Assembly: GCA_017620615.1 (NCBI GenBank)
Contig: JAGAUW010000028.1
Location: forward strand, 1-64,000
Source: Clostridia bacterium
Lineage (GTDB): Bacteria > Bacillota > Clostridia > Monoglobales > Monoglobaceae
DNA length: 64,000 bases
Direction of reading: 5' to 3'
In this document: piece by piece, positions 46,092 through 51,163 of the stretch
Layout: each line of letters starts with the position of its first letter
Position numbering within the stretch: position 1 is the stretch's first letter
Translations under genes and position numbers: made by a program
Notes under the pieces: generated by a model
The model's database searches: none
Told to the model about the DNA's origin: nothing
The model's input: the letters and a program-made list of their open reading frames with translations, nothing else

Positions 46092-46631
46092 ATGCTTTGT
46101 TTTAATATTAAAAATCAAATAATAGAAAGAACGGATGATTTTAAAGTAGTAGCAGACAGTCGAAATTATTTGACTGCCCACTTTTCCTTTAGTGAGGAAT
46201 GGGAGGGGGATATTGTTGCGATATTTGGAAATGGAACACAATTTTATAATGTAATTCTTTCTGATAATGCGTGCACTGTGCCCTGGGAGATTATAAAGGC
46301 TCCATTTTTCACTGTATCGGCGGTGTGTGGCGACAGAATAACAGCAAACAGTGTCATGGTTGATGTTGAAAAAAGCGGCTATGTTGAAGGGGAGACACCG
46401 AAAGAGCCGACACCTGAAGTATATGAACAGATATTGTCAAGCACAAAAGCTCCATATATAAGTGAAAACGGGAATTGGTGTGCATGGGACAGCAACAAAA
46501 AAACCTTTGTTGACACAGGAGTTAATGCAGAGGGTTATATTCCACAGCGAGGCACAGACTACTGGACAGAAGATGACAAAGCTGAAATAAAAGGATATGT
46601 TGATGATGCAATCTTAGGGGGTGAGTGGTAA
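46092..46631 (+). CDS. BppU-like tail fibre protein
   Basis: A 179-residue protein with an N-terminal beta domain (YLTAHFSFSEEWEGDIVAIFGNGTQFYNVIL, like BppU N-domains) and a C-terminal linker found in clostridial tail proteins (IPQRGTDYWTEDDKAEIKGY then VDDAILGGEW). AGGAGGGG is upstream of the ATG at 46092. Its stop shares the A with the next start (TAATG). Confidence 0.7.
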   Translation: MLCFNIKNQIIERTDDFKVVADSRNYLTAHFSFSEEWEGDIVAIFGNGTQFYNVILSDNACTVPWEIIKAPFFTVSAVCGDRITANSVMVDVEKSGYVEGETPKEPTPEVYEQILSSTKAPYISENGNWCAWDSNKKTFVDTGVNAEGYIPQRGTDYWTEDDKAEIKGYVDDAILGGEW

Positions 46632-47395
46632 TGGCGACGGTGAATGAGAAAATGACGGCTATCGCAGACGCTATCCGTGAGAAGACTGGCGGAATAGCCC
46701 CACTCACTCTTGATGATATGGCAACTGATATTCCAAAGGTATATGAAGCAGGAAAGAAATCACAATATGATGAGTTTTGGGATAGCTTTCAGGATTATGG
46801 AAATGAGATAAGTTATTATTGTGCTTTTGCTGAGGGCGGTAGCGAAGAGTATAAAAAATGGAATGATGTATATAACCCCAAATATGACATAAAACCAACT
46901 AATGCATATAACATGTATTGGCAAAGCGGGCTTGCGGATATATACAATGGTGACAAAATAAATGTTGATTTTTCAAAGGCTACGTCACTGCAATCCTGCT
47001 TTTACAATGCAATAAAAATTGAAAGGCTAAAGGTTGTTTCAGCTATCTCAGCAAGCATTTTGCAGCAGACTTTTGACGGGTGCAGGAAACTTCATACCAT
47101 AGAAAAGTTGATATTAAAAGAAGATGGAAGTCAAGCGCTGGTGAACACCTTTAGGTTTTGTGATGCTCTTGCAAATATATCAATAGAGGGGAAGATAGGG
47201 TATATCGTTAACTTTGCAAACTCGCCAAACCTTACATATGAAAGTCTTATGGGTGAACAAGGAATTGTAAATGCCTTAAAAAATTATTCAGGTACAACCA
47301 CAACAAGAACTTTAACACTACACGCGGATGCAAAAGCAAGATTAAGTGACAGCGATATTGCTATTGCTACGCAGAAAGGATGGACAGTCGGCTAA
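46631..47395 (+). CDS. phage tail fibre tip protein (BspA-like repeats)
   Basis: A 254-residue protein. The N-terminal VNEKMTAIADAIREKTGGIAPLTLDDMATDIPKV is a common adaptor in clostridial phage fibres. The rest has irregular leucine-rich repeats (NVDFSKATSLQSCFYNAIKIERLKV, LQQTFDGCRKLHTIEKLIL), which resemble BspA-type receptor-binding domains. It is likely the host-recognition protein (inference). Confidence 0.72.
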   Translation: MATVNEKMTAIADAIREKTGGIAPLTLDDMATDIPKVYEAGKKSQYDEFWDSFQDYGNEISYYCAFAEGGSEEYKKWNDVYNPKYDIKPTNAYNMYWQSGLADIYNGDKINVDFSKATSLQSCFYNAIKIERLKVVSAISASILQQTFDGCRKLHTIEKLILKEDGSQALVNTFRFCDALANISIEGKIGYIVNFANSPNLTYESLMGEQGIVNALKNYSGTTTTRTLTLHADAKARLSDSDIAIATQKGWTVG

Positions 47396-47580
47396 TGAAA
47401 AAAACAAAGATTGAACTTATAAAAATCACAGCATCAGAGGGTATGATGTTCACCAATGGTGAAACGTACAGCAAGGAAATATATCTCGGCTGTAATGATA
47501 GCCCAGATAATTGGCACGAAATTACAGATGCCGAGTATGCAGAAATTTTGAAAGAAGAGGAAGAAAAGGAAGAAATATAA
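47395..47580 (+). CDS. small acidic protein next to holin
   Basis: A 61-residue protein with an acidic tail (EYAEILKEEEEKEEI). The start ATG shares its A with the fibre stop; an in-frame ATG 15 bases earlier is possible. The slot is where XkdX-like proteins sit, but the sequence is not recognised. The stop overlaps the holin start (TAATG). Confidence 0.5.
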   Translation: MKKTKIELIKITASEGMMFTNGETYSKEIYLGCNDSPDNWHEITDAEYAEILKEEEEKEEI

Positions 47581-48026
47581 TGAATATTCAGACAGCAAAA
47601 GTATATCTTTGCACTGCTTTGGGGTTGGCAGGGAGCTTTGTGACACGGTTATTTGGCGGTTGGACCGAGGATATGATAACTCTTGTGATTTTTATGGCTG
47701 TGGACTTTGTGATGGGTTTGATTGTGGCAGGAGTTTTTCACAAGAGCGACAAATCAGCCACAGGAACGCTTAACAGTCGTGCAGGCTGGAGAGGACTCTC
47801 AAAAAAAGGGGTTACCTTGCTTTTTGTACTTGTAGCGCACAGACTTGATGGGCTTCTTGACACAAATTACATACGGACCACAACTATTATCGGATTTATT
47901 ATAAATGAAGCAATATCCATAATCGAAAATGCAGGGCTTATGGGTGTGCCTTTTCCCGAAATTATCACAAAAGCCATTGATATGCTGAAATCAAAGGGGG
48001 AAAAAGATGACCATGAAAATCATTGA
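47580..48026 (+). CDS. phage holin
   Basis: A 148-residue protein with three hydrophobic segments (about residues 8-25, 34-52 and 85-115) and a charged tail, matching the phage holin/toxin secretion family of Clostridia: VIFMAVDFVMGLIVAGVFHKSDKS, then a LNSRAGWRGLSKKG turn. It opens the membrane for the amidase, whose gene overlaps its end by 20 bases. Confidence 0.88.
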   Translation: MNIQTAKVYLCTALGLAGSFVTRLFGGWTEDMITLVIFMAVDFVMGLIVAGVFHKSDKSATGTLNSRAGWRGLSKKGVTLLFVLVAHRLDGLLDTNYIRTTTIIGFIINEAISIIENAGLMGVPFPEIITKAIDMLKSKGEKDDHENH

Positions 48027-48549
48027 TGTTAAATATCAATGGGAAAGTGAGCTAAAAAAAAGGAACAGCACAGAATATATAATTCTTCATCACAGGGTAG
48101 GGCTTGGCGATGCTCTCAGTATACACAAAGGGCATCTCAAAAACGGCTGGTGCGGGATTGGGTATCACTTTTATGTGAGAAAAGACGGCGCAGTATACCG
48201 AGGACGTCCATTAGCGACAGTGGGCGCACACTGTACGGGATATAACGGGCAAAGCATTGGCGTGTGTTTTGAGGGTAATTTTGAGACGGAAGAAGCCATG
48301 CCGGTAAAACAGAAAAATGCAGGCAAACAGCTTGTTTCACATCTTTTGGGGCTTTATCCCAAAGCGACGGTTAAAAGGCATAAGGATTTTTCAAAGACCG
48401 CTTGCCCCGGCAAAAATTTCCCCTTTGATGAAATAAAGAAAGGAGAATGTGAAATGACGGTTGAAGAAGCAGTAGAAATAATTCAGGCAAAGGCAGGAAT
48501 TGAAGACGGAACGGTTGAATTTTTGCTTTGCTACAAATACGGTGAATAG
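48007..48549 (+). CDS. N-acetylmuramoyl-L-alanine amidase (phage endolysin)
   Basis: An Amidase_2 (PGRP-type) zinc enzyme of 180 residues that cuts the peptide from muramic acid. Zinc ligands are likely H27 region EYIILHHRVG, the histidine of KRHKDFSKTACPGKNFPFDEI and its cysteine; the GIGYHFYVRKDGAVYRGRP motif is clear. A short C-terminal domain begins MTVEEAVEIIQAKAGIEDGTVEFL. The reading frame ends at TAG (48547-48549), but continues in frame with ten more plausible codons (LVLKLAEAMA) to TAA at 48580. GGGGG upstream of the ATG. Confidence 0.9.
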   Translation: MTMKIIDVKYQWESELKKRNSTEYIILHHRVGLGDALSIHKGHLKNGWCGIGYHFYVRKDGAVYRGRPLATVGAHCTGYNGQSIGVCFEGNFETEEAMPVKQKNAGKQLVSHLLGLYPKATVKRHKDFSKTACPGKNFPFDEIKKGECEMTVEEAVEIIQAKAGIEDGTVEFLLCYKYGE

Positions 48550-48674: not shown

Positions 48675-50867
48675 ATGGAAAAGTTTGAGGGAATGGTTGA
48701 GGGGATTATATACGAAAACCAGTCAAACGGCTATACAGTTTGTGATGCATCGTCTGGCGGGCATCTATATACGCTGACGGGGTATATGCCGGGACTTTCC
48801 GAGGGCGAAAAAATAATCGCCATGGGCGAATGGAAAAACCACCCTGAATATGGTCAGCAGTTCAGCGTAAGCTCATTTGAAAGGGTTATGCCAAAAACCG
48901 AGAACGAAATCGAACTGTATTTAGGCTCAGGAGTACTTCCCCACGTGGGCAGAAGCACGGCACGAAAAATGGTGGAGCTTTTTGGTAAGGATGCCCTCGA
49001 AGTGATTGAAAATGAGCCACAAAGGCTCACCGAGATAAAAGGGATTTCAAAGGCAAAGGCGGAAGAAATCCACAAGCGTTATGTTGAACAAATCGGCATC
49101 AAAAATATCGTTGTTTTCTTTCAGCAGTTTGGCGTATCTCCAAACCTTGCGGTGAAAGCTTATCGCACCTTTGGTCAGGGCGTTGTGAGCCTTGCGGGCG
49201 AAAACCCCTTTGCTCTCAGCGGAATTGACGGATTTACTTTCAAAATCTGTGACCGCATCCGTGAAGAAATGAAGCTTCCCCCAACCTTTGAACCAAGGAT
49301 TTGTGCAGGGGTGGTGAGCACTCTTTTAAATGGTGCATACTTGAGCGGTCATACCTATCTTCCAAAAGGTCAGCTTGTGGCACAAACAAAAGCTATGCTT
49401 GAAATTGATGCAACGGCTGTCGAAGATGCTGTGTCAAAGCTTTGCCTTGAGGATACCTTAAAAACCATAAGCTATGAAGAGTTTGACGCGGTTTATCTTG
49501 ATATGTTTTATGATGCCGAAAAAGGCGTCGCAACAAGGCTCAGGGAAATGAGCTCGCTTATCTTTGAAATCAACGGACGTGAGATGGAAGAAGAAATCGA
49601 AAATGCCGAGCGTGAGCTAGAAATGGTGCTTGCTCCAAAGCAAAAGGATGCGGTTTTCACTGCATTCGAAAATTCGGCTATGGTAATCACGGGTGGACCT
49701 GGCACGGGAAAAACCACCATAATAAAAGCTATTATAAATATAATGAAGCGTCAGGGAAAAAAAGTGATGCTTGCAGCCCCAACGGGACGTGCTGCAAAGA
49801 GAATGTCAGAGCTTTCCGGAATGGAGGCAAAAACCATTCACCGACTTCTTGAAAATCTGCCATCTGAGGGCGGGCGTGTGTGCTTTGCAAAAAACGAGAA
49901 GAACAAGCTTGATTGTGATGCGGTGATTGTTGACGAAATGTCGATGGTTGATATTTTGCTTATGCACAGCTTGCTTTTGGCGTTGCCCGTGGGAGCGAGA
50001 CTCATAATGGTTGGTGACTGTGACCAGCTTCCCGCTGTTGGTGCGGGGAATGTTCTTCGGGATATTATTGACAGCGAATGCCTTGCTTGTGTGAAGCTCA
50101 CCGAGATTTTCAGGCAGGCGAAACAAAGTATGATAGTGGTGAATGCCCACCGCATAAACAGCGGGCAGATGCCTTATACAAATAACCCCGAGGATGATTT
50201 CTTTTTGCTAAAATGTAATGATGCGGAGGGGGTTGGTGAGATAATCGCTGACCTTTGTGAAAGGAGAATTCCAACGGCATATGGTGTCGACAAAGTTATG
50301 GACATTCAGGTGCTGACGCCTACACGGAAAACGGCAATCGGTGTCCAGAGCCTCAATGAAGTTTTGCAAAGACGCTTAAACCCCAAGAAAGACAGAATAA
50401 GCGAAAAGACTGTTGGGGGATGCACATTCCGTATCGGCGATAAGGTTATGCAGAATAAAAACAACTATAACCTCGGCTGGACAAGGCTTTCAGACGGCGA
50501 AAAGGGTGAGGGGATATTCAATGGTGACGTGGGCTTTGTGTCGGACATAAATGTTCCAAGACAGACAATGTCGGTGATTTTTGACGACAAAAAGGTGGTA
50601 TATGACTTTTTGGATTTGACCGAAATCGAGCTTGCATACGCTCTCACAGTTCACAAAAGTCAGGGAAGTGAATTTGACGTGGTGATAATGCCCGTTTTTG
50701 ACACCCACAGACTTTTAACCACAAGAAACCTTTTGTATACGGCGGTGACCCGTGCAAAAAAGTTGGTTGTTCTTGTGGGCAAGGAGGAAATTCTTTCCCA
50801 GTTTGTAAGGAATGACAATGTCCAGATGCGATATTCGGGACTTCGTGAAAAACTTATAATAAGATAA
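48675..50867 (+). CDS. recD2: ATP-dependent RecD2-type DNA helicase
   Basis: SF1B 5'-3' helicase, 730 residues, of the RecD2/YrrC group that acts without RecBC. The N-terminal OB fold (residues 1-80) and helix-hairpin-helix region (about 90-180, LYLGSGVLPHVGRSTARKMVELFG) precede Walker A GGPGTGKTTIIKAI near 342, motif II VIVDEMSMVDILL near 418, and the C-terminal YALTVHKSQGSEFDVVIMP and LLYTAVTRAKKLVVLVG. AAAGGGGTGG lies 10 bases before the ATG. Confidence 0.95.
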   Translation: MEKFEGMVEGIIYENQSNGYTVCDASSGGHLYTLTGYMPGLSEGEKIIAMGEWKNHPEYGQQFSVSSFERVMPKTENEIELYLGSGVLPHVGRSTARKMVELFGKDALEVIENEPQRLTEIKGISKAKAEEIHKRYVEQIGIKNIVVFFQQFGVSPNLAVKAYRTFGQGVVSLAGENPFALSGIDGFTFKICDRIREEMKLPPTFEPRICAGVVSTLLNGAYLSGHTYLPKGQLVAQTKAMLEIDATAVEDAVSKLCLEDTLKTISYEEFDAVYLDMFYDAEKGVATRLREMSSLIFEINGREMEEEIENAERELEMVLAPKQKDAVFTAFENSAMVITGGPGTGKTTIIKAIINIMKRQGKKVMLAAPTGRAAKRMSELSGMEAKTIHRLLENLPSEGGRVCFAKNEKNKLDCDAVIVDEMSMVDILLMHSLLLALPVGARLIMVGDCDQLPAVGAGNVLRDIIDSECLACVKLTEIFRQAKQSMIVVNAHRINSGQMPYTNNPEDDFFLLKCNDAEGVGEIIADLCERRIPTAYGVDKVMDIQVLTPTRKTAIGVQSLNEVLQRRLNPKKDRISEKTVGGCTFRIGDKVMQNKNNYNLGWTRLSDGEKGEGIFNGDVGFVSDINVPRQTMSVIFDDKKVVYDFLDLTEIELAYALTVHKSQGSEFDVVIMPVFDTHRLLTTRNLLYTAVTRAKKLVVLVGKEEILSQFVRNDNVQMRYSGLREKLIIR

Positions 50868-50964: not shown

Positions 50965-50993
50965 AAAAAAAGTGCACGACCTGAGCCGTGCAC
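50965..50993 (-). terminator. terminator of the candidate small RNA
   Basis: Minus strand: GTGCACG, an 8-base loop, CGTGCAC (arms 50987-50993 and 50972-50978 on the plus strand) and then seven T (50971-50965). Confidence 0.8.
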
Positions 50994-51134
50994 GAAAAAT
51001 GCAGGACTCATTGTCGCTAAACAATCTTCAATAATGCCGAAACAGTCACTAAAAAAGCGAGCCTGCATTTTTACCAAAAGTAAAAATACTGACAGTTTCA
51101 GCAGATATTAAATTGAAAATTGTTTAGCTTGTTT
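50965..51134 (-). ncRNA. candidate structured small RNA, about 164 nt, with no gene in it
   Basis: The 325-base gap between recD2 and the next gene holds a complete minus-strand unit: a consensus promoter (51135-51163), an expected start near 51128, and a strong terminator (stem 50972-50978/50987-50993 plus seven T). No open frame is present. The RNA can form P1 (arms 51090-51102 and 51036-51048, 12 pairs with one U-U mismatch), hairpin P2 (51067-51074/51080-51087), P2' (51062-51072 with 50995-51005, 11 perfect pairs) and P3 (51010-51014/51021-51025). P2 and P2' exclude each other, and P1 with P2' makes a pseudoknot. The family is not recognised; 6S RNA is one possibility. Confidence 0.6.
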
Positions 51135-51163
51135 AATATATCACATCTTTAAAAAAATGTCAA
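51135..51163 (-). promoter_or_regulatory. promoter of the candidate small RNA
   Basis: Minus strand: -35 TTGACA (51163-51158), 17-base spacer, -10 TATATT (51140-51135). It begins 13 bases after the terminator of the upstream four-helix protein gene, so it serves an independent unit. Confidence 0.75.

Follow-up and report, generated by a model that had tools for sequence, protein, structure and literature searches.

A gene-less copy of an apparently unnamed, riboswitch-like RNA class of Clostridia with a predicted transcription attenuator

PreQ1-I riboswitches comprise a pseudoknotted domain followed by a terminator/antiterminator platform in front of the Shine-Dalgarno sequence, and the 3' strand of the pseudoknot serves as the switch strand. 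Decoys of the Rli55/EutX type are switch RNAs made as stand-alone transcripts, which titrate a regulator common to leader RNAs. For the comparison with pseudoknot riboswitches below, we followed the general terminator/antiterminator model (PMC7266159), and the Rfam accessions of two further RNA classes of interest here, drum and skipping-rope, were taken from PMC7779021.

Here we analyzed a minus-strand locus in the window, by which we mean the whole stretch of 64,000 nucleotides presented above; the window lies on contig C10 of its own genome, designated G000. A structured RNA is present at the place where a first-pass annotation had seen one. Judged from the sequence data, the locus very probably belongs to a large class of riboswitch-like transcription attenuators in Clostridia that is apparently unnamed, and is one of the copies with no gene behind them. 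Of the Clostridia genomes sampled, about one quarter contain the RNA family, some with at least ten copies, and the family falls outside all the families of Rfam 15.

Promoter, fold and surroundings of the window copy

The features of the locus are listed in Table 1. The start of transcription is predicted at ~51128, i.e., base 1 of P1. Both the minus-strand promoter and the strong terminator had been noticed in the first-pass annotation and were recovered here, the former together with an extended -10 TG. In a promoter test on 142 family copies, a -10 element with no more than one mismatch was found in 122 copies, as compared with 66/142 after shuffling; it lies mostly 4-6 nt 5' of P1 and is accompanied by the TG in 96 copies.

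Table 1. Positions of the RNA, its structural elements and the neighboring genes in the window
Feature	Position	Strand	Details
Promoter	51135..51163	-	TTGACA 51163-51158, 17 nt, TATATT 51140-51135, extended -10 TG 51143-51142
RNA	50965..51128	-	~164 nt if terminated; full-length match to model R2 at 50995-51128, 81 bits, E ~6e-16
P1, outer closing helix	51112..51128 (5' arm) with 51016..51032 (3' arm)	-	17 bp; minimum free energy (MFE) fold, covariation
P2, inner helix	51095..51103 (5' arm) with 51035..51043 (3' arm)	-	Fold, covariation; part of the pairing termed P1 in the first-pass annotation
Apical hairpin	51065..51089	-	UUUUUAC..GUAAAAA, A-tract 51072-51068; the local hairpin of the first-pass annotation
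PK5, 5' strand of pseudoknot	51059..51067	-	UGCAGGCUC; covariation and duplex energies
PK3, 3' strand of pseudoknot	51000..51009	-	GAGUCCUGCA; common to pseudoknot and antiterminator, invariant in three orthologues
Conserved U5 tract 3' of PK3	50995..50999	-	Loop of antiterminator; could alternatively pair with the A-tract
Antiterminator hairpin	50982..51010	-	51010-51000 (UGAGUCCUGCA) with 50992-50982 (UGCACGGCUCA), 10/11 pairs; -12.9 kcal/mol in the window copy (L001)
Intrinsic terminator	50965..50993	-	Stem 50993-50985 with 50980-50972, loop UCAG, U-tract 50971-50965; GUGCACGGC-UCAG-GUCGUGCAC, then seven U; -15.2 kcal/mol in the window copy
recD2	48675..50867	+	Convergent neighbor, HHH_RecD2 and OB_YrrC domains; outside the control of the RNA
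Upstream gene, 158 aa	51192..51668	-	Weak DUF2383 match, under the curated cut-off

The MFE of the window copy was -62.9 kcal/mol, as opposed to -32.9 kcal/mol (sd 3.4) for shuffled sequences, and none of 200 shuffles was as good (z = -8.8). The two long-range pairings described in the first-pass annotation, 51090-51102 with 51036-51048 and 51062-51072 with 50995-51005, both exist and cross each other, and the local hairpin proposed to compete with the latter does so. The former pairing, labeled P1 at that time, is nevertheless only the inner helix, and the 17-bp outer helix had been overlooked. PK5 and PK3 constitute an H-type pseudoknot that is lengthened by A5/U5. We also observed that the A5 tract (51068-51072) has two conserved U5 partners, one in the 5' arm of the apical hairpin (51082-51086) and the other 3' of PK3; the sharing of one A5 tract by two U5 tracts suggests, as a speculation, strand exchange or a triple helix.

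We inspected the ORFs 3' of the terminator of the window copy and found none led by a Shine-Dalgarno sequence; a second terminator and the 3' end of recD2 on the opposite strand are found there. The region had been described as bearing no open frame, which holds for Shine-Dalgarno-led ORFs after the terminator but not for mechanical ORFs, as these traverse the RNA region on the minus strand. What had been taken for the neighbor's own terminator is just a weak A/T inverted repeat, GTAAAAAT-N6-ATTTTTAC. Further away, on the 5' side of recD2, the ORFs at 46625-48549 resemble by eye the end of a prophage or a phage-derived cassette, and include those for a holin-like membrane protein and an N-acetylmuramoyl-alanine amidase-like protein.

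Known RNA families and the distribution of the new one

The Rfam search proposed in the first-pass annotation (6S and all families) yielded no family match at the locus: none of the 4227 families of Rfam 15 matched the window RNA at the gathering score, and searches with relaxed E-values gave only chance matches at the element. Twenty related loci, searched against Rfam at the gathering score, yielded one tRNA and nothing else, and no c-di-GMP riboswitch was matched in the window or in these 20 loci of relatives. Neither skipping-rope RNA (RF02924; cut-off 36.7 bits) nor drum RNA (RF02958; cut-off 43 bits) matched contig C10 of the window's genome, while members of both were found elsewhere, in G031 and G014. 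In these two genomes, which belong to the same taxonomic family as the window's genome, we observed drum, skipping-rope and the window RNA family side by side (L031, L032, L035, and L036), and they represent three unrelated multicopy classes of structured RNA. Skipping-rope RNA resembles the window family in being a pseudoknotted, multicopy sRNA of the same bacterial family, but differs from it in the conserved core (GAGAUG...) and in having its genuine copies at other places in the related genomes. Likewise, drum RNA shares with the window family the multicopy nature, an sRNA-type motif and the host genomes, but differs in sequence, structure and loci. A type III toxin-antitoxin RNA was rejected, as the downstream proteins are diverse and mostly exported, and ToxN was absent from the 25 commonest domains. 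We recognized no published description of the motif in the open-licence literature, the supplements of which (e.g., PMC8040213) may hold an unnamed candidate; the RNA family is apparently unnamed so far. The earlier proposal of an independent, pseudoknotted RNA of a new class is thus in accordance with the present searches, which placed the RNA outside every curated family tested.

Homologues were sought by blastn in 60 relatives, as had also been proposed, and matches were found in 22 genomes, in addition to paralogues in the window's genome. We then used two covariance models. The first, R1, was built from 13 relatives, and its seed included relatives from the window's genus; as MAFFT misplaced the variable stems in the alignment of the raw copies, the R1 seed was made with shortened inserts and later realigned on the true sequences. 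With R1, copies were detected in 28 of 38 genomes from the taxonomic family, with as many as 17 in a single genome. For the second, R2, we used 40 matches from 38 loci, apparently none of which was from the window's genus, although the matches had been picked with R1. R2 recovered the window copy at full length (Table 1) and scored its orthologues (L002 and L003) at 68 bits, whereas it gave nothing on the drum, skipping-rope and 6S matches in L031, L035, L036, and L210. L035 carries a separate copy of the window RNA family besides its Rfam sRNA. R2 matched 74 of the 291 sampled Clostridia genomes, spanning 46 of 181 genera, in which the genome counts are lower bounds owing to the filters applied, and none of the 248 other Bacillota genomes in the phylum sample. 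The window's genome itself possesses at least eight copies. A pattern scan of named genomes placed the family in metagenome-assembled genomes of gut Clostridia (Oscillospiraceae, Ruminococcaceae, Monoglobus, and others), and viral contigs contained no exact-pattern match, which speaks against phage cargo.

Each copy comprises a promoter, a long closing stem (P1/P2), an apical U5/A5 hairpin, an H-type pseudoknot, and a terminator. Tandem copies, found at L054/L190, L014, L082, L114, L119, L121, and L129, each have their own promoter and terminator and differ in the sequences of P1 and P2.

The predicted switch and the genes behind the copies

The covariation proposed to be sought in the predicted stems is present in P1, P2 and the pseudoknot. 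In the 13-sequence seed, P1 was 100% paired, and two-sided changes were seen in 9 of its 12 pairs (12/12 in a larger set of copies) and in all 8 pairs of P2; in the pseudoknot, pairing reached 95% and 3 pairs showed such changes. Among 107 copies, two-sided changes affect 28 of 36 pairs, and the structure including the pseudoknot scored 0.396 against 0.129 when shuffled and no more than 0.058 when slid (0/500); the pattern used to fetch many of the loci fixes UGCA, CUC, and GAG and inflates the pairing there, while the variable columns of the pseudoknot and the pairing of PK3 with the terminator are free from this bias.

When the 3' arm of the terminator was omitted, its 5' arm paired with PK3 at a mean probability of 0.75 and with P1 or PK5 at a probability of ~0; the 5' arm of P1 was accordingly rejected as the main antiterminator strand (probability of pairing with the terminator 5' arm, ~0.001). 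We further compared the duplex energies of the strands of each copy with those of strands exchanged between copies (142 copies; T5 stands for the 5' arm and loop of the terminator, and false copies on the reverse strand had been filtered out before the final tests). The self and swapped energies were -11.5 and -10.7 kcal/mol for PK5:PK3 (z -7.5) and -12.9 and -11.1 kcal/mol for PK3:T5 (z -9.7), whereas the control, PK5:T5, gave no signal (-6.3 vs -6.3 kcal/mol, z +0.8). These results persisted after clustering at 75, 80, and 90% identity, and some shared ancestry is left in the signal of such swap tests. In the window copy, the usual GGAG...CUUC is replaced by UGAG...CUCA, a two-sided change that keeps the antiterminator. 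Aside from these pairings, the 3' arm of P1 with its linker (GUGUCGCAGC type) is complementary to the 3' arm of the terminator (GCUGCGCAC), more so within than between copies. This complementarity (51016-51032 with 50972-50980) co-varies family-wide, is weaker than PK3:T5, and is weak in the window copy.

PK3 therefore has two exclusive, co-varying partners, PK5 upstream of it and T5 in the terminator, and this is the architecture of a transcription attenuator. In the family and in the window copy alike, a terminator and an antiterminator that exclude each other, and that share a strand with the upstream domain, are predicted. The idea that two exclusive folds indicate a regulatory RNA gains support from this, but the first-pass annotation had overlooked the switch between the pseudoknot and the antiterminator (51000-51010 with 50982-50992). 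Because the antiterminator is the less stable of the two hairpins (Table 1), switching would have to be co-transcriptional. If PK5 pairs with PK3, stabilized by a putative ligand or factor, the 5' arm of the terminator would be left free, the terminator would form and transcription would stop, so that the pseudoknot state would be OFF. If the pseudoknot fails, PK3 would capture the 5' arm of the terminator and RNA polymerase would read on. It is the direction of this response, along with its trigger, that we infer here.

Approximately half of the copies are followed closely by a gene. A Shine-Dalgarno sequence with a start codon occurs 15-30 nt past the U-tract in 60 of 209 copies, in comparison with 1, 6, and 2 in the neighboring bins. 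Under looser rules, an ORF starts no more than 45 nt past the terminator in 68 of the 121 loci found by pattern and in 17 of the 48 found by model. Among the 169 copies with readable context, 85 have a Shine-Dalgarno-ATG no more than 45 nt from the terminator, at 15-25 nt in nearly every case, and count as 5' leaders of a gene, which the window copy does not; the description of a stand-alone small RNA is thus true of the window copy but not of the family. The gap between terminator and ORF in the leader copies is too short for another promoter. The remaining copies are tandem, convergent or otherwise gene-less. In the window's genome, most of the sibling copies examined are gene-less, and no ORF lies directly behind the window copy or the copies on C11 and C22 (C22:30320), while the copy on C30 (L189:1375-1510) leads a 46-aa ORF. 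The product of the latter is probably a coiled coil (MKDYKKPYLKLMNEISDSIEKLKK...), and a similar ORF is found behind a copy in G007 (L024).

The N-termini of the downstream products were of the exported type (signal- or membrane-like) in 36 of 48 ORFs against 88 of 453 in the background (Fisher 1e-14), as assessed for ORFs of at least 100 aa by a simple in-script heuristic with the background drawn from the same loci. LRR_5/BspA-type LRR proteins make up 14 of 66 downstream products, and the others include DUF6273, RCC1, SLH, zinc-ribbon, and AMP-binding proteins, among others. No metabolic theme that points to a ligand was found among the downstream genes. Cyclic di-GMP is unlikely to be the trigger: in 13 of the 39 genomes that bear the element, a search for GGDEF gave no match, and both the window's genome and G032, which has up to 17 copies of the RNA family, are among these 13, with the reservation that single draft genomes may be incomplete.

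Alternative readings and comparison with known systems

If the family consisted of trans-acting small RNAs, termination would be constitutive, the pairing of PK3 with its second partner would be no more than a folding intermediate, and ORFs close by would depend on read-through. This would account for the promoter and terminator in each copy, for the commonness of convergent, tandem and gene-less copies, and for the lack of a gene behind most copies examined in the window's genome. The complementarity of PK3 and T5 is also kept in the copies without a close ORF (z -8.2). Nevertheless, this explanation leaves the sharp spacing of 15-25 nt, seen in about half of the copies and too tight to accommodate another promoter, and the strong bias toward exported proteins downstream to be explained, and we consider it rather unlikely. 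The same spacing, phase-locked to the Shine-Dalgarno sequence, argues against a mobile, MITE-like repeat that carries a promoter and a terminator by chance. The dispersed and tandem copies, as well as the gene-less ones that show no fixed orientation to genes, are what such a repeat would leave, but P1 and P2 diverge widely in sequence between copies with their pairing kept and viral contigs lack the exact pattern, so that a mobile repeat is highly improbable. A divergent 6S RNA, the suggestion of the first-pass annotation, would likewise be a stand-alone RNA of similar size (160-190 nt), built around a long, imperfect stem. However, the proper 6S gene of the genome lies elsewhere (G000:C15:10890-11081, 63.8 bits against the cut-off of 46.4), RF00013 does not match the window RNA, and the family is multicopy, pseudoknotted and equipped with a leader-type switch, leaving this candidate virtually no probability.

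For the window copy, the alternative is that it once led a gene, has since lost this gene and is now a functionless leader in decay, in line with the lack of a Shine-Dalgarno-led ORF past its terminator, where a second terminator and the 3' end of recD2 are located instead. On the other hand, G002 and G007 have orthologues in the corresponding position, and between these and the window copy the promoter core, PK5 and the PK3-U5-terminator block as a whole are invariant, whereas P1 and P2 differ among the three with compensation. The switch of the window copy is thus complete in three related species with no gene behind it, and we regard decay as unlikely. A role in trans is favored over a decaying leader: the window copy may be a trans-acting RNA of ~164 nt that titrates a shared effector or otherwise acts in trans, to which we assign slightly less than even credence. 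The gene-less window and sibling copies speak against a purely cis-acting switch, as they would not be needed for one. By extension, and only tentatively, the family could be a new riboswitch class that responds to a putative global signal by adjusting which surface and secreted proteins gut Clostridia make; the gene-less copies would then be trans decoys that tune the regulon, and the double U5/A5 element may form a three-stranded binding site.

If the predicted switch is true, the family would represent an orphan riboswitch-like class that controls surface and secreted proteins (BspA-type LRR, SLH, lipoproteins) of uncultured bacteria in herbivore guts, and would point to a signal, probably not c-di-GMP, that is now directly searchable. 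It is unusual that leader and gene-less copies share the same intact switch, and the cis and trans roles of one RNA class can be tested side by side. Rli55/EutX-type decoys serve as a model for the window copy, in which titration is solely what we infer, and differ from it in that neither ANTAR hairpins nor a cobalamin aptamer were recognized in the window RNA. With preQ1-I-like riboswitches, the window family shares the pseudoknotted domain, the terminator/antiterminator platform and the switch strand, but it differs from them in the long P1/P2, the U5/A5 hairpin in loop 1 and the sequence. Compared with pseudoknot riboswitches in general, the window family is distinguished by its many gene-less copies and by its regulon, in which surface and secreted proteins take the place of a metabolic pathway.
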